From a candidate division FCPU426 bacterium (GTDB lineage Bacteria; Oederibacteriota; JAJYGY01; DAIDJD01): 33,187 nt of DNA. The DNA lies in NCBI GenBank assembly GCA_027451505.1, contig DAIDJD010000078.1, positions 1-33,187 of the forward strand, read 5' to 3'. Every line of letters begins with the position of its first letter. Within the stretch, counting starts at the first letter, position 1. Below, piece after piece: positions 9,441-33,187 of the stretch. Made by a program: the position numbers and the translations under genes. Below the pieces are notes generated by a model. The model did no database searches. It was not told the DNA's origin and was given only the letters and a program-made list of their open reading frames with translations.

Positions 9441-9442
9441 CC

Positions 9443-9907: not shown

Positions 9908-9909
9908 CC

Positions 9910-11046: not shown

Positions 11047-11050
11047 CGCC

Positions 11051-12187: not shown

Positions 12188-12188
12188 C

Positions 12189-12656: not shown

Positions 12657-13177
12657 CGCTGCCGGCCCTGGTCTTCTACGCCTGCGCCCTGGGCGCGCTG
12701 GTGTGCGCGCTCCTGGTCGTCAGCAGCCGCAACGTCTTCCACAGCGCCCTGTTCCTGGCCGGGGCCCTGGCCAGCTTGGCCGTGGTCTACCTGCTCCTGG
12801 ACGCCGAGTTCCTGGCCGTGGTCCAGTTGCTCATCTACGTCGGGGCCGTGATCGTGCTGGTGATCTTCGCGGTGATGCTCACGGCCAAGGTGGGCCTGTC
12901 CGCGGCCCCGCAGACCAACCGACTGGCCCTGCCCGCCGGCGTGGGCGCCGCGGGCCTGCTGGTGGTCCTCCAGCGCTGGCTTCTGGCCACGCCCTGGGCC
13001 CAAGCCCAGGCCTCCGCGGCGGCGGACCGGGACCCCCTCGCGGCGGGGTCGCCGAACCTGCAGGCCTTGGGCCTTTCGTTGTTCACCCGCTACGTCTTCC
13101 CCCTCGAGATCACGGCCCTCATCCTCTTCGCCGCGCTGGTGGGCGCCGTGCTCATCGCCCGAAAGGACCGGCCATGA
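12653..13177 (+). CDS. nuoJ: NADH-quinone oxidoreductase subunit J
   Basis: This 174-residue membrane subunit has five transmembrane helices. The third-helix region with FLAVVQLLIYVGAVIVLVIFAVML is the family signature, including the helix that changes conformation during turnover. The C-terminal helix ends in GAVLIARKDRP. The GTG start overlaps the nuoI stop and the stop overlaps the nuoK ATG (ATGA), so translation is coupled on both sides. Confidence 0.93.
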   Translation: MTLPALVFYACALGALVCALLVVSSRNVFHSALFLAGALASLAVVYLLLDAEFLAVVQLLIYVGAVIVLVIFAVMLTAKVGLSAAPQTNRLALPAGVGAAGLLVVLQRWLLATPWAQAQASAAADRDPLAAGSPNLQALGLSLFTRYVFPLEITALILFAALVGAVLIARKDRP

Positions 13178-13491
13178 TCCCCGGAATCTCGCTGGGCCAG
13201 GTGTTGGCCCTTTCGGCGGCGCTTTTTTGCGTGGGCCTCTACGGCGTGGTCACCCGGCGCAACGCGGTGGGGGTCCTGATGGGGCTTGAGCTGATGTTCA
13301 ACGCCGCCAACCTGAATTTCGTGGCCTTCAACGGGTACCTCCACCCCCTGGCCCTCACCGGGCAGACCTACGTCGTGTTCACCATCACCATCGCCGCGGC
13401 CGAGGCCACGGTCGGTCTGGCCCTGGTGGTGAGCATGTTCCGGGCGCGCCGCAGCGTGCTGCTGGAGCACGCCGACCTGCTCAAGGGCTGA
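13174..13491 (+). CDS. nuoK: NADH-quinone oxidoreductase subunit K
   Basis: This 105-residue MrpC-like subunit has three transmembrane helices. The two intramembrane glutamates needed for proton transfer are Glu39 (LMGLELMFNAANLNFVAF) and Glu77 (TIAAAEATVGLAL). Length and motifs are canonical. The start overlaps the nuoJ stop as ATGA; nuoL starts 18 nt downstream with its own AAGG. Confidence 0.95.
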   Translation: MIPGISLGQVLALSAALFCVGLYGVVTRRNAVGVLMGLELMFNAANLNFVAFNGYLHPLALTGQTYVVFTITIAAAEATVGLALVVSMFRARRSVLLEHADLLKG

Positions 13492-13509
13492 GCCCACCCA
13501 AGGTCCTCC

Positions 13510-15573: not shown

Positions 15574-17087
15574 GCGCGGCCTTGGCGGGGTTCCCCATCC
15601 TCTCGGCCATTTGGCTGGCCCCGTTTTTGGCCGGCATCGCCCTGATGTTCGCGCCCGCGTCCTGGACCCGGGCGCCCCGCATGGTGGCCCTGGCCGCCTC
15701 GGCGGTGTCGCTGGCGCTGACCGTGGCCCTGCTGTTCGCCTTCGACTACCGAGCCGCGGGCGCGCTCCAGTTCCAGGAGCGGTGGACCTGGATCGCGGAT
15801 TTGGGGGTGGAATACCGCCTGGGGGTCGACGGCATCAGCCTGCTGATGGTGGCCCTCAACGCCGCCATCCTCTTCTCCGGCGTGCTGGCGAGCTGGGGCC
15901 TCCGCGAGCGGTCCAAGGAGTTCTTCGTGCTGCTCCTGCTGCTCGGCGGCGGCGTCTTCGGGGTCTTCACCGCGTTCAACCTGTACCTCTTTTTCGCGCT
16001 CTACGAGATCGCGGTGCTGCCGATGTACCTGCTCATCGGGGTTTGGGGGACCGGCCCGAAGGAGTACTCCGCCATGAAGCTGACGCTGATGCTGATGGGC
16101 GGATCGGCCTTCCTGCTGCTGGGGATCCTGGCGCTGTATTTCGGCTCCACCCCGCATTCCCTCGACATCCCGACGCTGCAGCGGGCCGCGGCCTCGGGCC
16201 AGTTCGGGATCGCCTTCCAGCGGCTCTGGTTTCCCGTGCTCTTCCTGGGCTTCGCGGTGCTGGCGGCCCTGTGGCCCTTCCACACCTGGTCGCCGGACGG
16301 CCACGCCTCGGCCCCCACGGCCGTGTCCATGCTGCACGCGGGCGTGCTGATGAAGCTGGGCGCCTATGGCTGCCTGCGCGTGGCCATCGGACTCCTGCCC
16401 CAGGGGGCCCACCTGTGGGCGCCCGCCGTGGCCGCGTTGGCGCTGGTCAACGTGGTCTACGGATCCATCGGCGCCGCGTCCCAGACCGACCTCAAGTACG
16501 TCACCGCGTACTCCTCGGTGTCGCACATGGGGATGGTCCTCCTGGGCCTGGCGACCCTGGGCACCCTGGGGCTCTCCGGCGCCGTGCTCCAGATGTTCGC
16601 CCACGGGCTCATGACCGGCGTCTTCTTCGCCCTCATCGGACTGACCTACGGGCGCACCCACACCCGCCACCTGCCGTCGTTGGGTGGGCTGGCGCGGGTG
16701 ATGCCCTTCGTCGCCGCGGCCTACGTCGTCGCGGGCATGGCTGGCCTGGGCCTCCCGGGGCTGAGCAGCTTCCCGGCCGAGCTGCTGGTCTTCCTGGGCG
16801 CCTTCCTGCACGGCGGCCTGTTCTTCCGGGTGGTGGGTGTGGCCGCCGTGTCGAGCATCGTGTTCACCGCGCTCTACGTGCTGCGGGTCCTGCAGAAGGC
16901 CTTCTACGGCCCGATCACCGAGCCCAAGTATCTGGAGCTCAAGGACGCCACCTTCGTCGAGCGCGTGCCGGTGGTGTTCCTTTTGTCGATCATGGTCGTG
17001 GTGGGGCTGTGGCCCTTTCCCGTGCTGAGGCTGATCGACGGGGCCCTGGCCCCGCTGGTCCAGGCGCTGGGGGGACTGCCGCGATGA
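15570..17087 (+). CDS. nuoM: NADH-quinone oxidoreductase subunit M (antiporter-like)
   Basis: This 505-residue antiporter-like proton-pumping subunit has about 14 transmembrane helices. Signatures are the Glu in FALYEIAVLPMYLLIGVWG, WPFHTWSPDGHASAPTAVSM followed by LHAGVLMKLGAYG, LKYVTAYSSVSHMGMV, and SSFPAELLVFLG near the C-terminus. The GTG overlaps the nuoL stop as GTGA; the stop overlaps the nuoN ATG as ATGA. Confidence 0.95.
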   Translation: MSAALAGFPILSAIWLAPFLAGIALMFAPASWTRAPRMVALAASAVSLALTVALLFAFDYRAAGALQFQERWTWIADLGVEYRLGVDGISLLMVALNAAILFSGVLASWGLRERSKEFFVLLLLLGGGVFGVFTAFNLYLFFALYEIAVLPMYLLIGVWGTGPKEYSAMKLTLMLMGGSAFLLLGILALYFGSTPHSLDIPTLQRAAASGQFGIAFQRLWFPVLFLGFAVLAALWPFHTWSPDGHASAPTAVSMLHAGVLMKLGAYGCLRVAIGLLPQGAHLWAPAVAALALVNVVYGSIGAASQTDLKYVTAYSSVSHMGMVLLGLATLGTLGLSGAVLQMFAHGLMTGVFFALIGLTYGRTHTRHLPSLGGLARVMPFVAAAYVVAGMAGLGLPGLSSFPAELLVFLGAFLHGGLFFRVVGVAAVSSIVFTALYVLRVLQKAFYGPITEPKYLELKDATFVERVPVVFLLSIMVVVGLWPFPVLRLIDGALAPLVQALGGLPR

Positions 17088-18550
17088 ACCTGGCGCTGCC
17101 GCTGCCGGAATACGGGGTCCTCGGACTGGCCCTGGTGGTGCTGCTCTACGATCTGGTCGTCCCGGAGCGCGTCTCGCGGCGGGCGCTGGGGTGGGTCTGC
17201 GCCCTGGGGTTCGCCGGGGTGCTGGCGCTCCTTCTGCGCTCCGACGCCCCGCAAGTGGCTCCGGTGCCGACCGCCTTCGGGGGCATGTACGTGGCCGACG
17301 GGCTGGCCTTGGCCTTCAAGACGCTCATCGTGGCCGCGGCGATGCTGGCCTCCCTGGCCAGCCTGGATTACCTGGAGGCCCGTGGGGTGCGCTGGCAGGG
17401 CGAGTACTACCTGCTGCTGACCCTGGTGACCTTCGCCCTGATGTGCCTCGTCTCGGCCGGCGACCTGCTCACGCTCTACGTGGCCCTGGAGCTCAACAGC
17501 ATCGGCTTCTACGCCCTGGTGGCGGTCCTCAAGGGGCGCAGCCTCACCAGCTCCGAGGCCGGGCTGAAGTACCTCATCCTGGGGGCCCTTTCCTCGGCCC
17601 TGCTGCTGTACGGGATCTCCCTGCTCTACGGCCTCAGCGGCACGGTCTCCCTCGCCGGCCTGGCCGCGTGGGCCGCGGGCGCGGCCCGCAGCCCGGCGCT
17701 GGTGGTCGCTCTGGCCCTCGTGGCCGCGGGACTGGCCTTCAAGATGTCGCTGGTGCCCTTCCATATGTGGGCGCCCGACGTCTACCAGGCCGCCCCCACC
17801 CCGGTGACGGCCTTCCTCAGCGTGGCCGGGAAGACGGCCGCTCTGGCCCTGCTGGTGCGGGTCCTGGACGCGGCCCTGGGGGGCTTCATCGGGGTCTGGG
17901 ACAAGCTCTTGATGGTGCTGATGGCCGCGACCTTCGTGTGGGCCAACCTGGGCGCCCTCAAACAGCGCGACGCCAAGCGGCTCATGGCCTATAGCTCCGT
18001 GGCCCAGGCCGGCTACCTGGCCATCGGCGTGGCCGCCGGTTCGGCGCTGGGGCTGCAGGCGGCGCTCTTCTACGCGCTGGTCTACGTCTTCACCAACGTG
18101 GCCGCCTTCCAGGTGCTCCAGCTCGTGGCCGAATCCGGCGGGCCGGAGCTCTCCGGACTGCGCGGCCTGGGGCGGCGTTCCCCGGGGCTGGCCCTCATCC
18201 TGGCCGCGGCGGTTCTGTCCCTGGCCGGGATCCCGCCCTTCGGGGGCTTTTTCGGCAAGTTCTACCTGTTCGCGGCGGGCGTACGGGAGGGTATCGTGGC
18301 GGGGCGGTCCTGGCTGCTGGCCCTGGTGGGGTTGGCCGTGGTGATGAGCATCGTGTCGTTGTTCTACTACCTCATCCTGGTGAAACAAATGTACATCGAG
18401 CCCGCCGACCCGGAGGCGCCGGGAACCGGGGGGCCGGTCGCGGTCCCGTTGGGCGCGCGGCTGGTGCTGGGGGTGTGCGCCGCCATGATTCTGTGGACCG
18501 GATTGTATCCATCGCCCATACTGGCCTGGATCCGGCAGGCGCTCTTCTAG
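17084..18550 (+). CDS. nuoN: NADH-quinone oxidoreductase subunit N (antiporter-like)
   Basis: This 488-residue third antiporter-like subunit sits next to NuoK. Diagnostic segments are LYVALELNSIGFYALVAVLK, FKMSLVPFHMWAPDVYQAAP, VAGKTAALALLVRVL, and AKRLMAYSSVAQAGYLAIGV. It is the last nuo gene; nuoE, nuoF and nuoG (the NADH-oxidising module) are not in the operon, so the complex is of the 11-subunit type or borrows an input module coded elsewhere. A GC hairpin and T-run directly follow the stop. Confidence 0.95.
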   Translation: MNLALPLPEYGVLGLALVVLLYDLVVPERVSRRALGWVCALGFAGVLALLLRSDAPQVAPVPTAFGGMYVADGLALAFKTLIVAAAMLASLASLDYLEARGVRWQGEYYLLLTLVTFALMCLVSAGDLLTLYVALELNSIGFYALVAVLKGRSLTSSEAGLKYLILGALSSALLLYGISLLYGLSGTVSLAGLAAWAAGAARSPALVVALALVAAGLAFKMSLVPFHMWAPDVYQAAPTPVTAFLSVAGKTAALALLVRVLDAALGGFIGVWDKLLMVLMAATFVWANLGALKQRDAKRLMAYSSVAQAGYLAIGVAAGSALGLQAALFYALVYVFTNVAAFQVLQLVAESGGPELSGLRGLGRRSPGLALILAAAVLSLAGIPPFGGFFGKFYLFAAGVREGIVAGRSWLLALVGLAVVMSIVSLFYYLILVKQMYIEPADPEAPGTGGPVAVPLGARLVLGVCAAMILWTGLYPSPILAWIRQALF

Positions 18551-18580
18551 GGCGCCCGAGGAGCGCCCCCGTTTTTGGGG
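18550..18580 (+). terminator. Possible intrinsic terminator or attenuator after nuoN
   Basis: GGGCGC (18550-18555) can pair with GCGCCC (18563-18568) around a 7-nt loop, followed after three bases by five T residues (18572-18576). An alternative hairpin, CCCC-GTTTTT-GGGG (18567-18580), shares the C-run and hides the T-run in its loop. The two structures exclude each other. It could partly end nuo transcripts before resB. Confidence 0.45.
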
Positions 18581-18614
18581 AGGGGAACCTTCTTCTAGGG
18601 AACGCAAGGAAACC

Positions 18615-20156
18615 ATGCCCGAACCCAACGCCGCCGCGCTCCCGCGCGAGGAGGCCGTGCTCGCCGCGGCCAAGCCCGCCCCGGCCGCCCCCCTGGCCCG
18701 CATCCTCGGCAGCTTCAAGCTGACGTTGTCGCTCTTCGCCCTTCTGGGGCTGTTCGCGGCCCTGGGGACCTTCATCCCGCAGGGGGAGGACTCGCCCCGC
18801 ATCCTCCAGGACTACGGACCCCGCTTCTACCAGCTCGCCCTCCAGCTCGGCCTGGACCACGTGTACCGGTCCTGGTGGTTCATCATGGTGCTGGCCATGA
18901 TGGCGTTGAACCTCATCATGGTGACGTGGGTGCGGGTGCCCCACGTCTGGAGGATCTCCCGGGAGGCCGACGCGGTCCTGCTGAAGGACCCCCTGGTGCC
19001 GAAGACGGCCTTCACGCGGGTCTGGGAAAGCGACCTGGACCCCCTCGAAGCCCTCGACCGGGCCCGTCGGGGCCTGCAGGTCGAGTTCCCCCGTTTGGCC
19101 CAGAAGGACGGGCCCCGGAGCCGGCTCCTGGTCGGGGAGCGCCACTACCTGTCCCTGTGGGCCGCCCACATCGTCCATCTGGGGCTTCTGCTGCTGCTGG
19201 CCGGCGGCGTGGTGAAGATCCTCTTCGGTTCCAGCCAGCCGGTGGCCATCCCCGAGGGGCAACAGAGCCCGGTCCCGGTGGAGAAGGTCCGCATCGATCC
19301 GCGGATCGAATGGCTCCGCCTGGGGCCCCTGCGGCTGCCGCTGCCGCTTCTGTATGAGCGCTACTTGGGGACCGCGCCTTTCCAGGTCTACCTGGACCAC
19401 TTCTCGGTGCGCTACTATCCCGGCACCGTCAATCCCAGGCTTTTCCGCTCCGACGTCAAGATCATCCGGGGCGGCCAGGTGCAGCGTGCCGCCTCCATCC
19501 GGGTGAACTCCCCGCTGGACATGGGGGGCGGCCTGCTCCTGTACCAGGCCTCCTGGGGCTACGACGGGCTCTACAGCGCCCAGTTCCGGGTCAAGCTCCC
19601 GGGCGAGCGCGACCAGCTCGAGATCCGGGCGCCCTACAAACAGCGTGTCCGGCTGCTCAACACCGGCTGGGAGCTCGAGGTGGTCGACTTCTATCCCGAC
19701 GCGGGGATGGCCGGCCCCGGCCAGCTCGTCAACGAGAGCGACGACCTCAACAACCCCGCCATCCGCGTCCAGTTCTGGCGCCACGGCGTCAAGAAAACCC
19801 TCACCTGGTTCGTGTACGCGATGCCGGACATCCAGATGGCGAAGGTGCCGGGGCTCAAGCTCTACGGCGAGACCGTGGACCCGACCCCCTTCACGGTGCT
19901 CGACGCCAATTTGGACCCCAGCGTGCCCTTCGCCGCGGCCGGTGCGCTGCTGGTCCTCTGCGGGACTTTTTCTGCGTTCTACCTTTTCTACCGTAAGGCC
20001 TGGGTCCTGGTGGAGCCGCGGGAGGGCGGCGGCAGCAGGGTCACCTTGGCGGGCTTCGTCCGACGCAACAAGTTCGCCTTCCAGCGGGTCTTTTCCCGCC
20101 TGGGGCGCGCCGTCGACGAGGCCCTCACCTCCCGGGACGCCTCCCTGAAAGGATAG
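18615..20156 (+). CDS. resB: Cytochrome c biogenesis protein ResB/Ccs1
   Basis: This 513-residue protein is half of the system II haem delivery and ligation complex with CcsA. Early helices occupy about residues 34-55 (SFKLTLSLFALLGLFAALGTFIPQ, the usual ResB opening) and 89-110 (SWWFIMVLAMMALNLIMVTW). A third helix is near 185-205, a large extracytoplasmic domain spans about 210-435, and a final helix lies near 440-460 (AAGALLVLCGTFSAFYLFY). The start is the ATG at 18615 with AAGGA 4 nt upstream. ccsA starts 5 nt after its stop. Its presence implies c-type cytochromes outside the cytoplasm. Confidence 0.92.
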   Translation: MPEPNAAALPREEAVLAAAKPAPAAPLARILGSFKLTLSLFALLGLFAALGTFIPQGEDSPRILQDYGPRFYQLALQLGLDHVYRSWWFIMVLAMMALNLIMVTWVRVPHVWRISREADAVLLKDPLVPKTAFTRVWESDLDPLEALDRARRGLQVEFPRLAQKDGPRSRLLVGERHYLSLWAAHIVHLGLLLLLAGGVVKILFGSSQPVAIPEGQQSPVPVEKVRIDPRIEWLRLGPLRLPLPLLYERYLGTAPFQVYLDHFSVRYYPGTVNPRLFRSDVKIIRGGQVQRAASIRVNSPLDMGGGLLLYQASWGYDGLYSAQFRVKLPGERDQLEIRAPYKQRVRLLNTGWELEVVDFYPDAGMAGPGQLVNESDDLNNPAIRVQFWRHGVKKTLTWFVYAMPDIQMAKVPGLKLYGETVDPTPFTVLDANLDPSVPFAAAGALLVLCGTFSAFYLFYRKAWVLVEPREGGGSRVTLAGFVRRNKFAFQRVFSRLGRAVDEALTSRDASLKG

Positions 20157-20161
20157 CGAAT

Positions 20162-21241
20162 ATGGACACAACCTCCGCGGCCTCCGCCTTCCAGAACTCC
20201 CTCAGCCAGGGGCTCTTCATCGCCCTGCTGGGGGTCCTGGCGGGCTCCTGGTCCTTGTACCTGGCCCACGTGCTCACCGGAAAGGAATCCTACCACCGCT
20301 GGGCGCGGCGGGTCCTGTGGTTCGCCGTGGTGTTCAACGCCGCGGCGCTGGCGTACCGTTGGGTCGCGGCCGGGCACGCGCCCTGGGCCAACCAGTACGA
20401 GAGCGCCACCATGGTGGCCTTCGGCGTCCTGGTCATCTTCACCTACTTCGAGCGGGAAGCCCGCCTTCCCCTGCTGGCCCTTCTGGTGCTGCCCGCGGCC
20501 ATGGTCGCCATCGCCGCGGCCAACCTGCTGCCCGAGCAGTACAAGATGATGGAGCCCCTGGTGCCGGCGCTCCAGAGCTACTGGCTCAAGATCCACGTCA
20601 CCTGCATGCTCACGAGCTACGGGGCCTTCGCCAGCACCTTCGCCTTGAGCCTGCTCTACCTCATCCGGGTCGGCGCGTGGACCCGGCGCACCACCTGGGT
20701 GGCCCTGGGGATCTCCTCGCCCCTGGCGGGCTGGTTCTTCGGCTACGTGCACCAGTCGGTGCGCAGCGACTTCTGGAACTGGCTGATGACCAGCCTGCAC
20801 CTCACGGAGCTGGCCGCCGGCGACACGGCCAAGGCCTACGCGGTGTGCGCCGCGGGGGGGCTGGCCGTAGGCATGCTCCTGGCCGCGGCGCTCCAGGCGC
20901 TCCCCGCCAAGTTGATGGAATCGGTGCCCTCGGCCGAGGTCCTCGACGAGCTCAACTACCGCAGCGTGGCCATCGGGTTCCCCCTGCTGACCCTGGGCAT
21001 CATCCTGGGGGCCGTGTGGGGACATGTGGCCTGGGGACGCTACTGGGGCTGGGACCCCAAGGAAACTTGGGCCTTCATCAGTTGGCTGGTCTTCGCCTTC
21101 TTCCTCCACATGCGGGTTTTCGGCGGCTGGAGCGGACGCAAGATCGCCTGGGTGGGGCTCATCGGCGCCGGGTCCATCGTCTTCACCTATTGGGGCGTGA
21201 ACTTCCTGCTGTCCGGGCTGCACGCCTACGCCAAGCCCTAG
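20162..21241 (+). CDS. ccsA: Cytochrome c biogenesis protein CcsA (haem handling)
   Basis: This 359-residue multi-pass protein carries the tryptophan-rich WWD haem-binding signature WGHVAWGRYWGWDPKETW at 286-303, followed by FISWLVFAFFLHMR with a candidate haem-ligand His at 316. Other conserved points are NQYESATM (78-84) and the WLKIHVTCMLTSYGAF helix with His145. Together with ResB it exports and attaches haem to apocytochrome c (system II). The ATG is 5 nt after resB, preceded by AGGA at 20150-20153. It is followed by tetrapyrrole genes, consistent with a shared haem role. Confidence 0.93.
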   Translation: MDTTSAASAFQNSLSQGLFIALLGVLAGSWSLYLAHVLTGKESYHRWARRVLWFAVVFNAAALAYRWVAAGHAPWANQYESATMVAFGVLVIFTYFEREARLPLLALLVLPAAMVAIAAANLLPEQYKMMEPLVPALQSYWLKIHVTCMLTSYGAFASTFALSLLYLIRVGAWTRRTTWVALGISSPLAGWFFGYVHQSVRSDFWNWLMTSLHLTELAAGDTAKAYAVCAAGGLAVGMLLAAALQALPAKLMESVPSAEVLDELNYRSVAIGFPLLTLGIILGAVWGHVAWGRYWGWDPKETWAFISWLVFAFFLHMRVFGGWSGRKIAWVGLIGAGSIVFTYWGVNFLLSGLHAYAKP

Positions 21242-21251
21242 GGCCGTTCCC

Positions 21252-21887
21252 GTGCGCCGGGGCGCCCTGTATCCCGCCTTCCTGGACCTGCGCGGAGCGG
21301 GCGTCCTGGTCGTGGGCGGCGGGGCCGTGGCCCTGCGCAAGCTCAGGGGCCTGCCGCCCGGCGCCGGCCCCATCCGGGTGGTGGCCCCCCGGTTCTCCGC
21401 GGCCCTGGAGTCCTGGGCCCGCCGCAGGGGCGGCGTGGACCTCGTACGGAGGCCCTTCCGGGCCACGGACCTCAAGGGGTGCCGCCTGGTGTTCTGCTGC
21501 GCCGACGCGCCCGGGCCCAACGCGGCCGCGGCCCGGGAAGGGCGGACCCGGGGCGTCTGGGTGTGCCAGGCCCAGGAACCGTCCCAGGGGGACCTTCAGG
21601 TCCCGGCCGTGGCGCGCGCGGGGGGACTGGCGTTGGCCTTGTCCACAGGCGGGGCGAGCCCGGCGGTCGCCCGCGGCCTGAGACTCCGTCTCGAGGCCCT
21701 CCTGCGCGGCTCGGACCTCCCCTGGCTTCTGGGACGGCTGCGGCGGCTCCGGCCCCGCCTGAAGGCCGATCCGGCCCTCAAGGCCCGCGTGCTCGCGCGG
21801 GCCACCACCCCCGCGGCCCTGGCCCTGGCCCTCGCGCCGCGCGCGGGTTCCCGCCGCCGCCGACTCGAATCCCTGTTGGAGCCATGA
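21252..21887 (+). CDS. Precorrin-2 dehydrogenase / siroheme synthase N-terminal type
   Basis: This 211-residue protein matches the NAD-binding CysG-N/Met8/SirC family, which oxidises precorrin-2 to sirohydrochlorin; some members also insert iron. The nucleotide fold is seen in VLVVGGGAVALRK (18-30). The second conserved block is GDLQVPAVARAGGLALALSTGGASPAVARGLR, with the STGG-x-SP signature at 131-137. The start is the GTG at 21252, 10 nt after ccsA. It lies between cytochrome c maturation and hemA, pointing to a siroheme or siroheme-derived haem branch together with the CobA domain downstream. The C-terminal ~50 residues are Arg/Leu/Ala-rich. The stop overlaps the next ATG. Confidence 0.85.
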   Translation: MRRGALYPAFLDLRGAGVLVVGGGAVALRKLRGLPPGAGPIRVVAPRFSAALESWARRRGGVDLVRRPFRATDLKGCRLVFCCADAPGPNAAAAREGRTRGVWVCQAQEPSQGDLQVPAVARAGGLALALSTGGASPAVARGLRLRLEALLRGSDLPWLLGRLRRLRPRLKADPALKARVLARATTPAALALALAPRAGSRRRRLESLLEP

Positions 21888-22729
21888 CCGAAAGCCTTCC
21901 CGCGTGCTTCCCCGTCTACGAGGCGGCCTTCGCGCTGCAGGTCCCGGCGCTGCTTTTGTTCCTCGCCTACACGATTCGGCCGAGGAGGGCCCTGGCCGCC
22001 TCGGCCACGGCCCTCCTCACGGCCTCCCTGGCCCTGCACATCGCCTTCACCGTCTGCCTGGGCGCGGCCTCGGGGGGCCTGCCCCTGTCCAGCGCCTTCG
22101 AGGCCGTGTCCCTCTGGGGGCTGTGCCTGACGGCGCTGGTGGTGGCCGTGGAATGGCGCCACCGCCTGGGGCTGCTGGGGGCCTTCCTGGCCCCCTTGAG
22201 CGCCGCGACGCTGCTGATGGGCTTCCGCTTCGCCCATTCCGCCTCGCGGACCGCGCCGGGGCTGGGGGACGCCTGGTTGCTGGCGCACGTGGCCCTGGCC
22301 ATGGCGGGTTTCGCGCTGTTCACCGCCGCGGCCGGGGTCGCCGGGGCCTACCTGGTGCAGGACCGCCAGCTCAAATCCAAGCGCATCGACGCCCTCACCT
22401 ACGAATTGCCCCCCCTGGGCTCCCTGGAGTCCCTGCTCGTCCGGCTCTCCGCCGCCGGGGCGCTGACCTTCCTGTGCGCGGTGGCGGCGGGCTTCGTCTG
22501 GCGCCTGCGCCTGGGCGTGCCCCTGGCCGCGTGGGACCCCAAGGTGGCCTTCAGCCTGGGCGTGGCCGGGGCCTACGCCGCCTGCCTCGGGCGGCGCTGG
22601 CGGGGGGCCATGGGCGGGCGGGCCTTCGCGCTGGCCTGCGTGGCGCTGTTCCTGGTCCTGTTCTTCGGGATCTACCTGGTGGACCTCTACTTCGGCGGCC
22701 ACGCGTTCCTTCGCGGCGGGGGCGGCTGA
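21884..22729 (+). CDS. hemX: HemX/CcsA-family membrane protein
   Basis: This 281-residue protein has about eight transmembrane helices and belongs to the cytochrome c assembly (CcsA/HemX) superfamily. The region FLCAVAAGFVWRLR...AWDPKVAFSLGVAGAYAACLGRRWRG aligns with the WWD-PKE(V/T)W region of CcsA, but the Trp-rich haem-binding part has eroded to a single AWDPK. It is therefore more likely a HemX-type protein, known next to hemA and reported to affect glutamyl-tRNA reductase level in Bacillus, than a second ligase. The start overlaps the upstream stop (ATGA) and the stop overlaps the hemA start (TGATG). Confidence 0.75.
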   Translation: MTESLPACFPVYEAAFALQVPALLLFLAYTIRPRRALAASATALLTASLALHIAFTVCLGAASGGLPLSSAFEAVSLWGLCLTALVVAVEWRHRLGLLGAFLAPLSAATLLMGFRFAHSASRTAPGLGDAWLLAHVALAMAGFALFTAAAGVAGAYLVQDRQLKSKRIDALTYELPPLGSLESLLVRLSAAGALTFLCAVAAGFVWRLRLGVPLAAWDPKVAFSLGVAGAYAACLGRRWRGAMGGRAFALACVALFLVLFFGIYLVDLYFGGHAFLRGGGG

Positions 22730-23994
22730 TGCCCATGCTGGTGGTCGGCGTCTCGCACCACACGGCGCCGCTGGACCTCAGGGAGGCGCTTTCCCTGGAG
22801 GGGCGCCTGGAGGGCGCCTACGGCTCCCTGGCGGAGGCCGCCGAGGAGCTCGTGTTGGTGAGCACGTGCAACCGCGTCGAGGCCTACGCCGAGGCGGCGG
22901 ATCCGCGCGCCGCGGAGGCCCGGCTTCGCGGGTTCTTCGAGGGTCTGGCGCCGGACATGGCGCCGCGGATCCGCAAGGCGCTGAAGGTCCTGCACGGGGA
23001 CGAGGCCCTGTGGCACCTCCTCAGGGTGGCCGCCAGCCTCGACTCCATGGTGCTGGGCGAGACCCAGATCCTGGGCCAGATGAAGGCCGCCTACGAGGGG
23101 GCCGTCGGCGCGGGCCGGGTGGGGGCGCGCTTCCACGGGGTGTTCCAGCGCGCCTTCGCCGCGGCGAAGCGCGTGCGCAACTCCACCGAGATTGGGCGGC
23201 ACCCGGCCAGCGTCCCCAGCGTGGCCGCCCAGGTCGCCGAACGGCTTCTGGGCGAGCTCAAGGGGCGCGCCGTGGCCGTGCTGGGGGGCGGGGACATGGC
23301 CGAGCTCACCGCCGAACACCTGGTCTCCTCGGGCGCCGACCGCCTGGCCTTTTGCAACCGCTACGTGGCCAAAGCCCGCGAGCTGGCCCGCCGTTTCAAG
23401 GGGAAGGCGGCCGGGCTCGACGACCTCGAGGGCGTGCTGGCCGAGGCCGACGTGCTCGTCTGCTCCACCGGCGCCCCCCGGGCTTTGGTCGGCCCGGACC
23501 TCGCGGCCGCGGCCCAGGCCCGCCGCCACCGCCGGCCCCAACTGTTCATCGACATCAGCGTCCCGCGCAACATCGACCCGGCGGTGGGGGCCCTCGAGAA
23601 CGTCTACCTCTACAACCTCGACGACTTGGATACCCTGGCCTCCGAGCACCGCGGGCGGCGCGAGCAGGCCGCGCGGGAGGCCGAGGAACTGCTGCGGGAG
23701 GCCCTGGATGGACTCCACGGGTGGGCGGAGTCCTCCCGGCTCGGGCCGGCCTTGGGCCGCCTCAGCGCCCATTTCGAGTCCGTGCGCGCCGCCGAGGTGG
23801 CCCGGGCCTCGGGGCGACTGTCCCATCTGCGCCCCGAGGACCGCGAGAAGGTCGAGGCCCTCACGCGCGCCATCACCCATCGGCTGCTCCACGGCCCCCT
23901 CGTCCGCATCAAGGCCCAGGCCCTCAAGGGCGGGGGCTCCCTGCTCAAGGGCGCCGAGGAGCTGTTCGGGCTCGAGCCGGGGGACGAATCGTGA
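22729..23994 (+). CDS. hemA: Glutamyl-tRNA reductase
   Basis: This 421-residue enzyme reduces Glu-tRNA to glutamate-1-semialdehyde, the first committed step of C5-pathway tetrapyrrole synthesis. The start VVGVSHHTAPLDLREAL, the catalytic Cys47 in VSTCNRVEAY, LGETQILGQMKAAYEGA, and DISVPRNIDPAVGALENV are all canonical. A C-terminal dimerisation domain occupies the last ~100 residues. I took the ATG at 22729, which overlaps the preceding stop; an ATG two codons later is also possible. The stop overlaps the hemC GTG. The enzyme shows that the organism uses glutamate rather than glycine/succinyl-CoA. Confidence 0.95.
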   Translation: MPMLVVGVSHHTAPLDLREALSLEGRLEGAYGSLAEAAEELVLVSTCNRVEAYAEAADPRAAEARLRGFFEGLAPDMAPRIRKALKVLHGDEALWHLLRVAASLDSMVLGETQILGQMKAAYEGAVGAGRVGARFHGVFQRAFAAAKRVRNSTEIGRHPASVPSVAAQVAERLLGELKGRAVAVLGGGDMAELTAEHLVSSGADRLAFCNRYVAKARELARRFKGKAAGLDDLEGVLAEADVLVCSTGAPRALVGPDLAAAAQARRHRRPQLFIDISVPRNIDPAVGALENVYLYNLDDLDTLASEHRGRREQAAREAEELLREALDGLHGWAESSRLGPALGRLSAHFESVRAAEVARASGRLSHLRPEDREKVEALTRAITHRLLHGPLVRIKAQALKGGGSLLKGAEELFGLEPGDES

Positions 23995-24881
23995 GGACCC
24001 TCAGGCTGGCCACCCGGGGCTCGGCGCTCGCGCTGGCGCAGACCCGGGTCGTGGCCGCGGCGATCGCGGCCCTGCCCGGGGCCCCCGCCGTGGAACTGCG
24101 CGTGGTGCGCAGCGAGGGGGACCAACGCTCCGACGCCGCCCTGTCCGAGGCCGGGGGCACCGGGCTGTTCACCCGGGCCCTCGAGGACGCCCTGCTCGCC
24201 GGGGAGGCCGACGCCGCGGTCCACAGCCTCAAGGACTTGCCCACGGCCCTGGCGCCGGGCCTGGGACTGGCCGCGGTGGGCGCGCGCGAGGACTGGCGCG
24301 ACGCCTGGATCTGCGCGACCCACGCTTCGCCCCGGGACCTTCCCCCCGGGGCCCTGGTGGGGACGGGGAGCCCGCGCCGGCGGGCCCAGTTGCTGCGCTT
24401 GAGGCCGGACCTACGCTGCGTGGAGCTCCGGGGGAACGTGGACACGCGCCTGCGCAAGGTCGCCCAGGGCGAGGTCCAGGGCGCCGTGCTGGCGCTGGCC
24501 GGGCTGCGCCGCCTGGGCCTGGAGGGCCGGGCGCGCGCGGCCTTCGGTGAGGAGGAGATGCTCCCGGCCCCGGGGCAGGGCTTTGTCGCGGTCGAGGCCG
24601 CGGAGGGGGGCGGGGCCTTCGACCTCTGTCGGGCCGCCTTCCACGACCCCGGGGCCGCGGCCGAGGCGGCCTGCGAAAGGGCCTTCCTGGAGCGTCTGAG
24701 GGCCGGGTGCATGGCGCCGGTAGGGGCCCTGGCCCGGCGCGGCCCGGCCGGCCTGGAACTGAAGGTGTTCGCGGAGTTGAAGGCCGGCGCCCCCCGTACC
24801 CTGGCCCGCGTCGGCCCGGCGGAGGACCCCCGGGCCCTGGGGCTGGGACTGGCCGAGGCGCTGCTGGCGGACGGGGGCTGA
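23991..24881 (+). CDS. hemC: Porphobilinogen deaminase (hydroxymethylbilane synthase)
   Basis: This 296-residue enzyme polymerises four porphobilinogens to hydroxymethylbilane. The N-terminal LRLATRGSALALAQ, the catalytic Asp82 in VHSLKDLPT, TGSPRRRAQLL, and ELRGNVDTRLRK are conserved. The dipyrromethane cofactor attaches to Cys240 in RLRAGCMAPVGA. The GTG start overlaps hemA as GTGA, and the cobA-hemD gene begins 1 nt after the stop. Confidence 0.95.
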   Translation: MRTLRLATRGSALALAQTRVVAAAIAALPGAPAVELRVVRSEGDQRSDAALSEAGGTGLFTRALEDALLAGEADAAVHSLKDLPTALAPGLGLAAVGAREDWRDAWICATHASPRDLPPGALVGTGSPRRRAQLLRLRPDLRCVELRGNVDTRLRKVAQGEVQGAVLALAGLRRLGLEGRARAAFGEEEMLPAPGQGFVAVEAAEGGGAFDLCRAAFHDPGAAAEAACERAFLERLRAGCMAPVGALARRGPAGLELKVFAELKAGAPRTLARVGPAEDPRALGLGLAEALLADGG

Positions 24882-24882
24882 G

Positions 24883-26442
24883 GTGGCCGCCCCCCGGACG
24901 GGCAAGGTCTGGCTGGTGGGTGCGGGCCCGGGGGACCCGGGCCTTCTGACCCTGCGCGGGCGCGACGTCCTGGCCCGGGCGGACGCGGTGGTGCACGACC
25001 TCCTGGCCAACCCCGAGCTTTTGGAACTGGCCCCGGCCGGGGCCAGGCGCATCAACGCGGGCAAGCGCGCCGGGGCCCATGTGCTGGGCCAGGAGGAGAC
25101 CAACGCCCTGCTCGTGCGCCTGGCGCGCGCGGGCAAGCGGGTGGTGCGCCTCAAGGGCGGCGACCCCTTCGTCTTCGGCCGGGGGGGCGAGGAGGCCCTG
25201 GCCCTCGCGGCGGCGGGCGTCCCCTTCGAGGTGGTGCCGGGGGTCAGCAGCGGCGTGGCGGCCCCGGCCTATGCCGGCATCCCGATCACCCACCGCGGCT
25301 TGGCCACGGCCGCCGTGTTCGTGACCGGGCAGGAGCGCTCCGGAAGGCCGTTGCGTTCCGCGACCCTGGCGCGGCTGGCGGGGCTGGACGCCACCCTGGT
25401 GTTCTTCATGGCCACCGGGTCCGCCGAGCGCGTGGCCGAGGGCCTGATCCGCGCCGGGAAATCGGGCGCGACGCCGGCGGCCTGCGTGACGAACGGGACC
25501 CTTCCGGGGCAGCGTACGGTGGTCGCCCCGCTCAAGGACCTGCCGCGGCGCATGCGCGAGGAGGGGCTCGGCGCCCCGGGGCTTTTGGTGGTGGGTCCGG
25601 TGGCCGGGCTGAGGCGGAGCTTGGCCTGGTTCGAGACGCGCCCGCTCTTCGGACGCCGCTACCTGGTGACGCGCGCGCGCGAGCAGGGCGGGCGGCTGGC
25701 CGAGGAATTGAGGGCCCTGGGCGCCGACGCCCGGGAACTGCCCCTGCTGCGCTACCGGCCCCTGCCCCTGGATGAGTCCATGCGGGCGGCCTTCGCGCGG
25801 CTGCGTTGGACCGACTGGCTGGTGCTCACCAGCGCCAACGGCGTGGCCCACCTCTTCGAACGGCTGGCCGAGGCCGGGCTCGACGCGCGGGCCCTCGCGG
25901 GGGTCCGTGTGGCGGCCGTGGGTTCGGCCACGGCCCGGGCCCTGGTCGAACACGGGGTCGCCGCGGACCTGGTGCCCGAGACCTACGATGGAGACCACCT
26001 GCTGAAGGCCCTGCTGCCCCGGCTGCGGCGGGGCGGCCGGCGCCGCGGCGTGCTTTTGGCCCGGGCCGCCGAGGGCAGCGCGGTCCTGCCCGAGGGGCTG
26101 GCCCGCCATGGGGTGGCCTGTCGGGACCTCCACCTCTACCGCGCCCTTCCGGTGGCCCGGAGCGGGGGGGAGGCCGCCGCCGCCCTTGAGGAGGGGGGCG
26201 CCGACGGGGTGGTGTTCACCAGTTCCGCGGCGGTGGAGCGTTTCCGCGCCCTTTTCCCGCGCGGGCGTTGGTCCGAGGCGGCCCCGCGGATCCGGGCCCT
26301 GTGCCTGGGACCGGTCACCCGGGGCGCGGCCGAGGCCGCCGGCATGGCGGTGGACCTGGAGTCCCCGCGGCCCCTCATCGCGGACTTGGTCGCGGCCATC
26401 GAACGCAGGGACGGCGCCGCGGGGCGGGGACGCCCGTCGTGA
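24883..26442 (+). CDS. cobA-hemD: Fused uroporphyrinogen-III C-methyltransferase / uroporphyrinogen-III synthase
   Basis: This 519-residue two-domain enzyme has an N-terminal SUMT domain (about 7-245) with VWLVGAGPGDPGLLTLRG, VRLKGGDPFVFGRGGEEA and VPGVSSGVAAPAYAGIPITHRG. This domain methylates uroporphyrinogen III to precorrin-2. The C-terminal HemD domain (about 257-510) has RRYLVTRA, DWLVLTSANGVAHLF and DGVVFTSSAAVERF and closes the macrocycle. The CobA-HemD fusion is known in several anaerobes and Firmicutes. With the upstream precorrin-2 dehydrogenase it forms a route to sirohydrochlorin. The start is the GTG at 24883; the stop overlaps the next GTG. Confidence 0.93.
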   Translation: MAAPRTGKVWLVGAGPGDPGLLTLRGRDVLARADAVVHDLLANPELLELAPAGARRINAGKRAGAHVLGQEETNALLVRLARAGKRVVRLKGGDPFVFGRGGEEALALAAAGVPFEVVPGVSSGVAAPAYAGIPITHRGLATAAVFVTGQERSGRPLRSATLARLAGLDATLVFFMATGSAERVAEGLIRAGKSGATPAACVTNGTLPGQRTVVAPLKDLPRRMREEGLGAPGLLVVGPVAGLRRSLAWFETRPLFGRRYLVTRAREQGGRLAEELRALGADARELPLLRYRPLPLDESMRAAFARLRWTDWLVLTSANGVAHLFERLAEAGLDARALAGVRVAAVGSATARALVEHGVAADLVPETYDGDHLLKALLPRLRRGGRRRGVLLARAAEGSAVLPEGLARHGVACRDLHLYRALPVARSGGEAAAALEEGGADGVVFTSSAAVERFRALFPRGRWSEAAPRIRALCLGPVTRGAAEAAGMAVDLESPRPLIADLVAAIERRDGAAGRGRPS

Positions 26443-28900: not shown

Positions 28901-29812
28901 GTGACCCTCATCCCCACCGCCGTCATCCGCGCCCAGGGGCGCAAACCCCCCTGGCTGAGGGCCCAACTCCCGGGCGGTGAGGGCTACGAGGCCACCCGCG
29001 CCCGCGTCACCGGCCTGGGCCTGCACACGGTGTGCGAGGAGGCCCGCTGTCCCAACCTCGGGGAATGCTGGTCCCGGGGAACCGCCACCATCATGATCCT
29101 GGGCGACGTGTGCACACGGGCCTGCGGCTTCTGCGCCGTGAAGACCGGTCGTCCCCCGGCCTTGGACGAGGCCGAGCCGGAACGGGTCGCCGAGAGCGTC
29201 CGGCGCATGGGCCTGCGGCACGTGGTCATCACCAGCGTGGCCCGGGACGAACTGCCCGACGGAGGGGCCGCGATCTGGGAGCGCACCATACGGCTGACCC
29301 GGGCGGCGGCCCCGGGGACGAGCGTGGAGGTCCTGGTGCCGGACTTCCTGGGCAAGCGCGGCTCCTGGGACCTGGTCTTCGGGGCGCGTCCGGACATCCT
29401 CAACCACAACGTGGAGACGGTGCCGCGCCTGGCGCCCCGGGTGCGCAGCGTGGCGCGGTGGGACCGCAGCCTCGCGCTGCTCAAGGCGGCCGCGGACGCC
29501 GGATTGGCCACCAAAAGCGGGCTCATGCTGGGGCTCGGGGAGGCGGATTCCGAGGTGGAGGAAACCCTCGCCGCGCTCCGGGCCGCCGGGGTGGGCATCG
29601 TGACGCTGGGGCAGTACCTCCAGCCCACCCCCGACCACCTGCCGGTGGTGGAGTACGTGCGTCCCGAGGCCTTCCAGGGATGGCGCCGCCGCGGCTTGGA
29701 GATGGGCTTCCGGGTGGTGGAGAGCGGCCCCCTGGTCCGCTCCAGCTACCACGCCGACGAGCAGGCCTCCCGGGCGGCTGAGGCCCCGTTCCAGCCCCGG
29801 ACCGGGGGGTGA
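28901..29812 (+). CDS. lipA: Lipoyl synthase (radical SAM)
   Basis: This 303-residue enzyme inserts two sulfurs into octanoyl groups on lipoyl domains. The auxiliary cluster Cys45, Cys50 and Cys56 has the C-x4-C-x5-C spacing (CEEARCPNLGEC); the radical-SAM cluster is Cys71, Cys75 and Cys78 (CTRACGFC). The C-terminal RSSYHA near residue 280 supplies the conserved Ser that ligates the auxiliary cluster. GDVCTRACGFC, NHNVETVPRL and KSGLMLGLGE are typical. The GTG has GAGGA 8 nt upstream. No lipB is adjacent. The stop overlaps the next GTG. Confidence 0.96.
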   Translation: MTLIPTAVIRAQGRKPPWLRAQLPGGEGYEATRARVTGLGLHTVCEEARCPNLGECWSRGTATIMILGDVCTRACGFCAVKTGRPPALDEAEPERVAESVRRMGLRHVVITSVARDELPDGGAAIWERTIRLTRAAAPGTSVEVLVPDFLGKRGSWDLVFGARPDILNHNVETVPRLAPRVRSVARWDRSLALLKAAADAGLATKSGLMLGLGEADSEVEETLAALRAAGVGIVTLGQYLQPTPDHLPVVEYVRPEAFQGWRRRGLEMGFRVVESGPLVRSSYHADEQASRAAEAPFQPRTGG

Positions 29813-30690
29813 ACCCGGCCCTGGACCTCTCCGCCTGGCTGGGGCCGGGCAGCGCCGGGGCCGAGGCCTTCGAGGCCCGGGCATCGTTGTTCCGGCGCGT
29901 CTATCCCCGCTGGTACCGGCTGGACCCCCGGGGCCTGCCGGAGCGTTCCGCCGACCCGGCCGCGGAGCGGGTGCGCGCCTCGGCCGGGGCCGCCGGCGTG
30001 GAGCTGTGGCCCCGGCTGGAGGCCGCCGTCCCCCCGCCCGCGGGGGACTGGGATCCCGGCGTCCTGGCGCGCCGACTCGGGCAGGAGGGCGCGCGGGGGA
30101 TCTGCCTGGATCTGGGGCCCGCTCCGGGCGCCGCGGGCGCGGACTTCGTCCGCGCCCTGGCTCCGGCCCTGCGCGCGGCGGGGCTGGCCTGCGCCCTGGT
30201 GGCGGCGCCCTCGGACCCGGGCGGCCCGCCCCCCGGCGCCGACTGGTCCGGATGGGCGGGTCTCTGCGACCGGCTCCTGGTGCGGGGGTACCGCCCCGCC
30301 GGCGGGCCCGGGCCCCTGGCCCCGCCGGCGTGGTGCGCCACGGTGTTGGAGGGCTTGGCCGGGGTGCCCGCGTCCCGGATCGAATGGACGCTGCCGGCGG
30401 CGGGGCGCCTCTGGGACGCCGCCGGGTCCTCCGAACTCCCCTACGCCGCCTGGGAAACGCTCATGCGCACCCGCGGACCCGAGCGCCGCGATCCCCCGAG
30501 CGGCGAGATGTTCCTGAGGTCCCCCGGCGCCGAGGCTTGGGCCAACGACGCCGTGAGCCTGACGGGGAAGCTGCGGGTGGTCCTCCTCCGGGGGATCCGC
30601 GCGCTGTCCCTGGACGGGCTCGGCCACGAGGATCCGCGACTTTGGACCCTGCTCGACGCCCTGCCCGACTCCGTCTTCATCCGCTCCTGA
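29809..30690 (+). CDS. Degenerate GH18-like (YaaH-type) protein, probably non-catalytic
   Basis: This 293-residue protein has no signal peptide. Several stretches follow the order of spore-cortex-type family 18 glycosidases: the strand EGARGICLDLGPAP (93-106) where the family has a (I/L)DFE catalytic block, ADFVRALAPALRAAGLACALVAAPS, LCDRLLVRGYRPAGGPGPLAPPAW (the M-x-Y-D strand region), RIEWTLPAAGRLWD, and the closing GIRALSLDGLGHEDPRLWTLL. The catalytic Glu is replaced (LDLG), so hydrolysis is unlikely. This assignment is my alignment by eye and is inference. The start is the GTG at 29809, overlapping lipA as GTGA. Role unknown; a cytoplasmic scaffold or binding function is possible. Confidence 0.55.
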   Translation: MNPALDLSAWLGPGSAGAEAFEARASLFRRVYPRWYRLDPRGLPERSADPAAERVRASAGAAGVELWPRLEAAVPPPAGDWDPGVLARRLGQEGARGICLDLGPAPGAAGADFVRALAPALRAAGLACALVAAPSDPGGPPPGADWSGWAGLCDRLLVRGYRPAGGPGPLAPPAWCATVLEGLAGVPASRIEWTLPAAGRLWDAAGSSELPYAAWETLMRTRGPERRDPPSGEMFLRSPGAEAWANDAVSLTGKLRVVLLRGIRALSLDGLGHEDPRLWTLLDALPDSVFIRS

Positions 30691-30707: not shown

Positions 30708-31562
30708 ATGGACACCTCCAAGATCCTACGCCTCGCCCGGGAACTCGCCCTTGAGGCGGGCCGTCTCCAGATGCGCAAGTTCCGCGGACGCCTGGCCATC
30801 AGCTGGAAGGGCGCCACCGACCCCGTCACCGAGGTCGACCGCGCCTGCGAGGCCCTCATCGTCCGGGGCATACGCCGGGCCTTCCCGGGCCACGCCATCG
30901 TCGGCGAGGAGGGCGGCCCGCAGGGCGACGAATCGGGCGGGGCCGAATGCACCTGGTTCATCGACCCCCTCGACGGCACGGTCAATTACAGCCACGGCCT
31001 TCCCACGTTCTGCGTCAGCATCGGGGTCTGGAGCCGCGGCGCGCGCGCGGCCCGGGGCCGCATCTCCGACGCCGCGGCCGGGGTGCCGCTGGTGGGGGTG
31101 GTCCACGCGCCCGCGTTGGGGGAGACCTGGACCGCCGCGCGGGGCCGGGGCGCCCTCCTCAACGGGCGGCCCACCCGCGTCTCCGGCCAGGCCAAGCCCC
31201 TGGAGGCGGTCCTCGCCAGCGGCTTCAGCTACACCGCCCGGGAGAGCGGGGAGAACACGCGGGAATGGATGGCGGCGCTGCGGCGCTTCCAGGCGCTGCG
31301 GCGGATGGGCTCGGCCGCGCTGGATCTTTGCTTCACGGCCTCGGGGCGTTTCGACGGGTTCTGGGAATACGGGCTCAAGAGCTGGGACGTGGCCGCGGCC
31401 GGCCTGGTCCTGGAGGAGGCCGGCGGCCGCGTGACCAACATCCAGGGCGGTCCCTACGCCCTGGGCCGCCCCGGCATCGTCGCGACCAACGGTCGCCTGC
31501 ACCGCGCCCTCCTGGGCTGCCTCGCGGGGGCCCTGCGGGAACCCCTGGACTGGAAGCCCTGA
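30708..31562 (+). CDS. suhB: Inositol-1-monophosphatase family phosphatase
   Basis: This 284-residue Mg-dependent, Li-sensitive-type sugar phosphatase has metal ligands Glu67/Glu68 in VGEEGG, Asp86 and Asp89 in DPLDGTVNY, and Asp227 in SWDVAAAGLVLEEAGG. Between the second and third strands (about 109-126) there is a 10-15 residue Arg/Ala-rich extension compared with E. coli SuhB. The natural substrate could be inositol phosphate, fructose-1,6-bisphosphate or another sugar phosphate; sequence does not settle this. The ATG at 30708 has AGGGGG about 11 nt upstream. The ABC-F gene starts 1 nt after its stop. Confidence 0.9.
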   Translation: MDTSKILRLARELALEAGRLQMRKFRGRLAISWKGATDPVTEVDRACEALIVRGIRRAFPGHAIVGEEGGPQGDESGGAECTWFIDPLDGTVNYSHGLPTFCVSIGVWSRGARAARGRISDAAAGVPLVGVVHAPALGETWTAARGRGALLNGRPTRVSGQAKPLEAVLASGFSYTARESGENTREWMAALRRFQALRRMGSAALDLCFTASGRFDGFWEYGLKSWDVAAAGLVLEEAGGRVTNIQGGPYALGRPGIVATNGRLHRALLGCLAGALREPLDWKP

Positions 31563-31563
31563 C

Positions 31564-33187
31564 ATGCCCCTGGTCACCTTCGCCAAGGTCTCCAAATACT
31601 TCGGCGCCCGCGACATCGTCGAGGGCGCCGACTGGGCCATCGAGGACGGGCGCCGCATCGGCCTGATCGGGGCCAACGGGGCGGGGAAGACGACCCTGTT
31701 CCGCATGCTTCTGGGCGAGGAGGAGCCCTCGGAGGGGGACATCTCCCGGCAAAAGGGCCTCACCGTGGGGCACCTCAGCCAGCACCCCAACTTCAACCCG
31801 GGGCACACGCTGCGCGAGGAGATGCTCACCGCGCGGCCCGAGCTCCTGGCCCTCGAGGCGGAGATGAAGCGCCTCGAGCACGAGATGGCCGACCCGGCCG
31901 TGGCCGCGGACGCCGAACGCCTGGACAAGGTCATGCACCGCTACGCCGACGCCCAGGGCCGCTTCACCGCCTTGGACGGCTACGCTTACGAGAGCCGGGC
32001 CGAGGGCGTGCTGCAGGCGATGCGCTTCAGCCCCGCGGACTTCGAGCGGGAAGTGGCCGGGTTCTCCGGCGGCGAGAAGACCCGCCTGATGCTGGCCAAG
32101 CTGCTCATCAGCCAGCCCCGGCTGCTGCTGCTGGACGAGCCCACCAACCACCTGGACACCGGGATGTGCGAATGGCTGGAGGGCTTCCTGGCGGACTACC
32201 CGGGCGCCCTGGTGTGCATCAGCCACGACCGCTACTTCCTCGACCGGGTCGTCACCGAGATCGTGGAGCTCAAGGACGCGCGCCTGAAGCTGTACCCCGG
32301 CAATTACAGCTTCTACAAGGCCAACAAGGACAAGGAGCAGGAGCTCGCCGCCAAGGCCCTGGACGAGCAGAACGCCCTGATCGCGCGCACCGAGGACTTC
32401 ATCCGCAGGAACATCGCCGGGCAGAACACGAAGCAGGCCCAGGCCCGGCGCAAGATGCTCGAAAAGCTCGAACGCGTCGAGGGCCCCGACCGCAAGCCCC
32501 GGGGAATGGCCTTCGCCATCAACCAGAAGCAGGCCTCGGGCAAGGAGGTCGCCGTCTTCGAGGGGGTGGCCAAGTCCTTCGGGGAGCGGACCCTGCTGGA
32601 ACCCTTCACCCACACGCTCTACCGCGGGTCGCGGGTCGGGCTCATCGGGCCCAACGGGGCGGGCAAGTCCACCCTGCTGAAGGTGCTGGTGGGGCGCGAA
32701 CCGGCTTCGGCGGGCCGGGCCGGCCTGGGCAAAGGGGTGGAGCTCGGCTACTACGACCAGATGCAGTCCGACCTCGACCCGAAGAACACGGTCATGGAGG
32801 AGATCTGGAGCCTGCTGCCCGGGGAGGGCCAGCAGACCATACGCGGGATAGGCGGGCGCTTCCTGTTCAGCGGGGGGGACATCGACAGCCGGGTGGGAAA
32901 CCTCTCCGGCGGCGAGAAGGCCCGCCTGGTCCTGGCCAAGCTGATGCTTCGGGGGCCCAACTTCCTGGTGCTCGACGAGCCCACGAACCACCTGGACATC
33001 CTCAGCCGCGAGGTCCTGGAGGAGGCCCTGGACGAGTTCGAGGGGACCCTGCTGGTGGTCAGCCACGACCGATACTTCCTGGACCGGGAGTGCGACGAGA
33101 TCTGGGAGTTGGACGGGGCCGGGATCCGCGTCACCGAGGGCAACTACACCGCCCACCTGGAGCAGCGGCGGCGCCGGGAGCGGGAAG
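31564..33187 (+). CDS. ABC-F family ATPase (ribosome-associated), 3' partial
   Basis: The 541 visible residues contain two ABC ATPase domains and no membrane segments, so this is an ABC-F protein, a family that binds the ribosomal E site in translation or antibiotic protection. Domain 1 has Walker A GANGAGKTT (36-44), signature FSGGEK (167-172) and Walker B with D191-E192. The linker (about 241-345) holds the charged helical P-site-tRNA-interaction region. Domain 2 has GPNGAGKST (362-370), LSGGEK (447-452) and D471-E472. Both signatures lack degeneracy. It resembles Uup/YfmR-like housekeeping members more than a resistance variant, but that is inference. The frame runs off the right edge in an Arg/Glu-rich tail. 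Confidence 0.93.
   Translation, partial: MPLVTFAKVSKYFGARDIVEGADWAIEDGRRIGLIGANGAGKTTLFRMLLGEEEPSEGDISRQKGLTVGHLSQHPNFNPGHTLREEMLTARPELLALEAEMKRLEHEMADPAVAADAERLDKVMHRYADAQGRFTALDGYAYESRAEGVLQAMRFSPADFEREVAGFSGGEKTRLMLAKLLISQPRLLLLDEPTNHLDTGMCEWLEGFLADYPGALVCISHDRYFLDRVVTEIVELKDARLKLYPGNYSFYKANKDKEQELAAKALDEQNALIARTEDFIRRNIAGQNTKQAQARRKMLEKLERVEGPDRKPRGMAFAINQKQASGKEVAVFEGVAKSFGERTLLEPFTHTLYRGSRVGLIGPNGAGKSTLLKVLVGREPASAGRAGLGKGVELGYYDQMQSDLDPKNTVMEEIWSLLPGEGQQTIRGIGGRFLFSGGDIDSRVGNLSGGEKARLVLAKLMLRGPNFLVLDEPTNHLDILSREVLEEALDEFEGTLLVVSHDRYFLDRECDEIWELDGAGIRVTEGNYTAHLEQRRRRERE

Follow-up and report, generated by a model that had tools for sequence, protein, structure and literature searches.

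Directly behind the lipoyl synthase gene lipA of a candidate division FCPU426 genome lies a frame (29809–30690, + strand) that an initial annotation had described as a YaaH-type family 18 glycosidase (GH18) with a ruined catalytic block, raising the question of whether it encodes a folded protein, whether such a protein could still cleave glycosides, and what it does between lipA and an inositol-phosphatase-family gene. We analysed the whole 33,187-base stretch around it, hereafter the window, which is the entire contig C78 of a MAG of 2.36 Mb in 252 contigs (89.6% complete).

Family models bear out the placement between these two genes. lipA (28901–29812, + strand) encodes a 303-residue lipoyl synthase (TIGR00510, 360.4 bits against a cut-off of 310.25) with 67% identity to the copy in the sole same-order genome, the inositol-monophosphatase-family gene (30708–31562, + strand; PF00459, 222.9 bits) starts 17 nt downstream of the GH18-like frame, and an ABC-F ATPase gene (31564–33187, + strand; PF00005; NF000355, 462 bits) begins one base further on and runs off the contig end at 33187. 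The GTG start of the GH18-like frame lies within the lipA stop codon, giving a 4-nt overlap (GTGA), and translation of its 293-residue product would be coupled to that of lipA on the same message. A promoter and terminator scan returned two terminator-like sites, against 0.6 expected, and no promoter-like site. The frame is open throughout, ends with the closing motif GIRALSLDGLGHEDPRLW, has a codon bias like that of its neighbours (GC1/2/3 of 0.795/0.642/0.935) and, alone among the six frames there, has a positive coding score; an antisense frame (29746–30627) is also open, which means little at such GC, as is a second + frame (from 30006). Since the frame combines its neighbours' codon bias with a GH18 alignment over residues 7 to 283, nearly the whole length of the product, it is, in origin at any rate, a genuine coding sequence.

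Other parts of the window carry features of their own. The protein encoded at 513–1373 (+ strand) combines a FlgD-like Ig domain with a sorting domain for type IX secretion (Por_Secre_tail), a hint that the genome may possess such a secretion system, and a 281-residue frame with no Pfam match at E ≤ 0.01 is flanked by DNA polymerase III alpha and polyprenyl synthetase genes (6464–7306, + strand). From 8604 to 26442, with all genes on the + strand, a complex I run (Oxidored_q6, 49 kDa, NADHdh, Fer4, 4L and three Proton_antipo_M genes) is followed by ResB, a cytochrome c assembly gene, a sirohaem-type NAD-binding gene, and genes for glutamyl-tRNA reductase, porphobilinogen deaminase and a uroporphyrin methylase-HemD fusion.

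The assignment to GH18 comes from profiles and structure comparison. No Pfam or NCBIfam model matched the window protein at E ≤ 1, and no Pfam model, PF00704 included, did so even at E ≤ 10. A family HMM built from 47 relatives, with the window protein excluded, scored it at 69.5 bits against 4.4 bits for the best of 1000 shuffles, and a phmmer search of PDB sequences matched the Chromobacterium violaceum chitinase 5jh8 (E 3e-6). An AlphaFold2 model from a 48-row alignment (pLDDT 89.4, pTM 0.88) contained strands and helices that read, by DSSP, as a (β/α)8 barrel with strand 1 at residues 6–10 (29824–29838, + strand) and a small inserted domain before strand 8; modelling from the single sequence gave no barrel and a pLDDT of 40.4, so the barrel model leans on the relatives. 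Both Foldseek and VIA-align ranked 5jh8 first (Z 29.6, r.m.s.d. 2.6, 286 aligned), followed in VIA-align by 4q6t (Z 28.9), SleL 4s3k (Z 28.7) and 4s3j (Z 28.2), rows within one Z unit counting as tied, and the 50 matches listed for each search were GH18 enzymes or chitinase-like proteins. One region past strand 3 is shortened: the relatives carry about 16 extra residues, in stretches of 9 and 7, around residues 83–92 (30055–30084, + strand), which form a helix in the model and fall within a part of the alignment that is poor (residues 72–96). The YaaH-type layout and closing motif proposed in the initial annotation thus hold up, structure prediction yields a TIM barrel, albeit an alignment-dependent one, and the window protein is a degenerate GH18 barrel.

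If the scaffold is that of GH18, the active site is not. The 47 named relatives derive from 80 loci caught by DxDYE and MTYD search patterns, 48 having been chosen for coverage, less one that contained a stop, and their counts at these two motifs are therefore biased. Where they mostly read G-I-D-I-D-Y-E, the window protein has GICLDLG (residues 97–103; bases 30097–30117), and the former DxDxE motif has become Cys99-Leu-Asp101-Leu-Gly103 (30103–30117, + strand), which agrees with the LDLG variant reported earlier. The first Asp (42/47) is replaced by Cys99 and the second (47/47) is retained as Asp101, while the catalytic Glu, present in all 47 aligned relatives, is absent, Gly103 standing there in an ungapped comparison and a gap in the MAFFT alignment. 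The Glu is also kept in all 41 distinct rows that came from protein or profile searches and not from motif patterns (best loci per search), a count not wholly free of bias in that profile searches also favour the motif, in all nine rows fetched with the window protein itself (L002–L009, L040), and in 117 of the 118 rows with at least 150 profile positions, the sole exception being the window protein. The strand-6 motif M-x-Y-D reads Arg159-Gly-Tyr161-Arg162 (30283–30294, + strand), with both Met and Asp exchanged for Arg and the Tyr kept, against motif-biased counts in the relatives of 47/47 for Met, 47/47 for Tyr and 44/47 for Asp. In columns outside the search patterns, a conserved Lys (46/47) is replaced by Ala133, a conserved Asn (44/47) by Ala72, and the invariant strand-8 Trp (47/47) by Asp269 (30613–30615, + strand). 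The site is not rescued by a conserved Glu elsewhere: E274, located past strand 8, is shared with the family (41/47), and E71, where strand 3 ends, is foreign to the family and the sole new acid noted near the mouth besides D269.

The losses are unevenly distributed. Among conserved polar and aromatic positions, some of which are search-motif columns, 10 of 17 are lost and 7 kept, compared with 2 lost and 9 kept of 11 conserved glycine and aliphatic positions (Fisher p 0.054). The core-hydrophobic columns number 75, with residues in 65 and gaps in 10, and 55 of the 65 hold hydrophobic residues, a share of 85% against 46% across the protein and 87% in the lowest of the 47 relatives. These counts suggest that the scaffold is largely retained and the pocket lost. 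Because the proton donor and most sugar-contacting residues are missing, glycoside hydrolysis would be impossible for the window protein; the pocket mouth appears to have been rebuilt and to be more charged (C99, D101, R159, Y161, R162 and D269), and any remaining role would at most be binding or protein contact.

The export signal is missing as well. Strand 1 starts at residue 6 in the model, leaving no room for a signal peptide before it, the frame upstream of the GTG stays open for just 9 codons, and the next start codon, a TTG, falls at residue 27, beyond strand 1, in line with the absence of a signal peptide noted in the initial annotation. By a crude hydropathy check, the 37–74 residues ahead of the barrel include a hydrophobic stretch in the ordinary GH18 proteins L002–L009 and L040, where the Kyte-Doolittle mean of the best 15 residues is 1.6–2.6. 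LysM repeats precede the barrel in the YaaH/SleL subfamily; the window protein has none, as its frame begins at strand 1 and Pfam finds nothing.

Searches for further copies place the window protein on its own. Protein scans of genome contigs and viral contigs gave no relatives of it, and a viral contig scan with an FCPU426 GH18 query gave no match. Matches occurred in 8 of 59, 7 of 45 and 6 of 384 genomes at E ≤ 0.01, 0.001 and 1e-6, respectively, the own genome being included and the sets overlapping, and the relatives behind them (L002–L009, L040) all have the ordinary Glu. Conservation of the LDLG variant, a check proposed with the initial annotation, did not materialise, since no other degenerate copy carrying it was found in the searched genomes, contigs or fetched rows, and no second copy was found at E ≤ 1 in the own genome, an 89.6% complete MAG. 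PF00704 is present in 28 of the 45 genomes of the phylum. Contig C119 of the own genome carries the one other GH18 found there, a chitinase-like gene of the ordinary kind (PF00704, 68.8 bits; GVDIDWE); considered as a catalytic partner, it was rejected as unlinked to the window gene, and another copy may be missing from the incomplete MAG.

The window protein is 22–31% identical to the FCPU426 members L002–L006 and L008. In a quick tree of 41 hand-picked rows it groups with FCPU426 copies from the same order and from f8 at an SH-aLRT of 81, which is weak, and its odd composition makes the placement unsure; its end branch is the longest in the tree (3.22 against a median of 0.48). Some rows are identical in the tree (L006/L042, L008/L043, L007/L044), and L041 is 100% identical to the L004 query. 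The ancestry of the window protein lies in the secreted GH18 type resembling YaaH/SleL, and it is placed weakly with the FCPU426 members. Its weakly supported sisters, the secreted FCPU426 GH18 proteins (L004, equal to L041, of the same order, and L003, L006, L007 and L008), differ from it in having the DxDYE-type Glu, MTYD, YGYDW, the Trp, and a hydrophobic stretch before the barrel. L004 (G001, contig C338) belongs to a tandem of two GH18 genes of different types in the sole same-order genome. A separate divergent GH18 branch (L159–L163, the genes of L143–L147) occurs in five of the six f9 genomes of the phylum, with GVDLDYE or GVDVDYE, VMCYD and YGNDW motifs and a long common branch of 2.09.

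The arrangement behind lipA is likewise not conserved. lipA is found in 30 of 45 genomes of the phylum, the own genome included; its 30 places besides the window's own yielded 29 loci, one per other genome. None of these 29 lipA loci has a GH18-like frame beside it by tblastn or the family HMM, the stretch covered being mostly some 1.5 kb to either side; 27 loci include 1.2 kb or more of downstream sequence, and in the other two, which have 0 and 56 downstream bases, the upstream side alone was covered. In the same-order genome the gene next to lipA reads, by eye from its frame, as a putative pyruvate dehydrogenase E1.

The fold type, the lost motif, the lost leader and the coupling layout are shown computationally at this locus. 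We consider it probable that the window protein is a folded, cytoplasmic, non-catalytic GH18-fold protein, that is, a pseudoenzyme. This reading is supported by homology over nearly the full length, the barrel model, the in-frame coding bias, the 4-nt overlap with lipA, pocket losses that exceed scaffold losses, a mostly hydrophobic core and a frame that survives indels. Against it stand the single sequence, for which genome and contig searches found no ortholog with the same changes, the compositional extremes described below, the 10 non-hydrophobic residues among the 65 filled core positions and the 10 gapped ones, the failure to obtain a barrel from the single sequence, and the weakness of an open frame as evidence at high genomic GC. 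The pseudoenzyme would fold and possibly bind something, and possibly it is fading; most likely it is a lineage-specific oddity and not part of a conserved system.

A first alternative is that no role remains at all, the frame being the relic of a once secreted GH18 whose signal peptide disappeared, perhaps on landing behind lipA, and that is still open in a setting (~93% GC3) where stops are rare. Composition speaks for it. Among 144 genes called by our own script in 20 contigs (the window and 19 others), the window gene has the highest GC2 (0.642, against a mean of 0.492 and s.d. of 0.059 for the others) and the second highest share of Gly, Ala, Arg and Pro (GARP, 51%), whereas the 47 relatives, including 12 with GC3 of at least 0.9, reach at most 0.538 and 37.7%. 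Together with the very long end branch, the extreme GC2 indicates weak constraint on the window gene, and the high GC2 and GARP are as expected from loosened constraint under GC-biased mutation; the openness of the antisense and second + frames and the missing ortholog fit as well. However, the frame is unbroken across some nine deletions and two internal insertions absent from the relatives (alignment-dependent counts), about 11 indels without a frameshift, the core hydrophobics and glycines are mostly retained, and GC1, GC2 and GC3 remain far from equal; the unbroken frame and the still strongly different codon positions argue against complete decay. We regard a relic without any role as unlikely, although with a single sequence 'repurposed' and 'fading' are indistinguishable for this protein, so that from the earlier description as dead and apparently repurposed it is the loss of the Glu that stands.

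A new enzyme on the old barrel is a more doubtful proposal, in which C99, D101, Y161, R159, R162 and D269, perhaps with E71, would form an anion-friendly site for a cytoplasmic substrate. The replacements found where strands 6 and 8 end are charged, strand 4 has a Cys, the change from Trp (TGG) to Asp (GAC) takes three base changes for which GC drift alone is insufficient, and the neighbouring families act on phosphorylated or thiol-cofactor substrates. Yet these residues have no support from conservation, Arg is itself encoded by GC-rich codons, no known family model in Pfam or NCBIfam matches, and the link to the neighbours is not conserved. It is rather improbable, and we offer it as speculation, that a GH18 barrel moved to the cytoplasm, where its new Arg/Asp/Cys pocket would bind or convert an anionic metabolite, and that the barrel is made together with lipoyl synthase and the inositol-phosphatase-family enzyme.

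Retained glycosidase activity, for which another residue such as E71, or the substrate together with D101, would provide the acid, seems to us very unlikely. D101 and Y161 are the counterparts of hevamine Asp125 and Tyr183, which are reported to assist at the acetamido group (PMC3662789), and E71 sits at the end of strand 3. The strand-8 Trp, the Met and Asp of MxYD, the Lys (A133), the Asn (A72) and the first Asp of DxDxE, however, are gone together with the Glu. Enzymes of the YaaH/SleL-like type act on substrates outside the cytoplasm, and the window protein has no export signal. A chance frame or an assembly error encoding no real protein is scarcely credible: high GC does yield long spurious frames, but the homology over residues 7 to 283 lies in this very frame, which also has the codon bias, and neither other frame of bases 30100–30130 holds an IDYE-like block by eye.

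The pseudoenzyme we favour most resembles the YaaH/SleL-type GH18 structures (4s3k and 4s3j, also 5jh8 and 4q6t; Z 28–30), with which it shares the barrel with a small inserted domain and the closing GxEDPxxW; in contrast to them it lacks the catalytic Glu, the MxYD motif, the strand-8 Trp, the signal peptide and LysM, and is about 16 residues shorter before strand 4. GH18 barrels without the catalytic Glu are known from the chitinase-like proteins and chi-lectins of animals and plants (YKL-40, SI-CLP, TCLL), and the model also matches 1hjv (YKL-40; Z 26.0) and SI-CLP 3bxw (Z 26.8), slightly below the bacterial structures. The natural GH18 pseudoenzymes encountered among the structures and the literature consulted, namely TCLL, SI-CLP, the YKL-40 group and Ym1/Ym2, are eukaryotic and secreted, and some chitinase-like proteins of eukaryotes bind sugars. 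TCLL has Ala, Val and Phe at the three key places (PMC3662789). GH18 pseudoenzymes are thus a known kind, from which the window protein differs in being bacterial, leaderless, further decayed in its sugar-contact residues and single. A search of open-access titles and abstract openings, which is weak, found no leaderless bacterial GH18 pseudoenzyme and none tied to lipA. As a singleton from one MAG with no conserved neighbourhood, the window protein raises no general question yet; a leaderless bacterial GH18 pseudoenzyme with most of its active site gone would, on a small scale, illustrate in nature how a secreted hydrolase decays or finds a new use within the cell.
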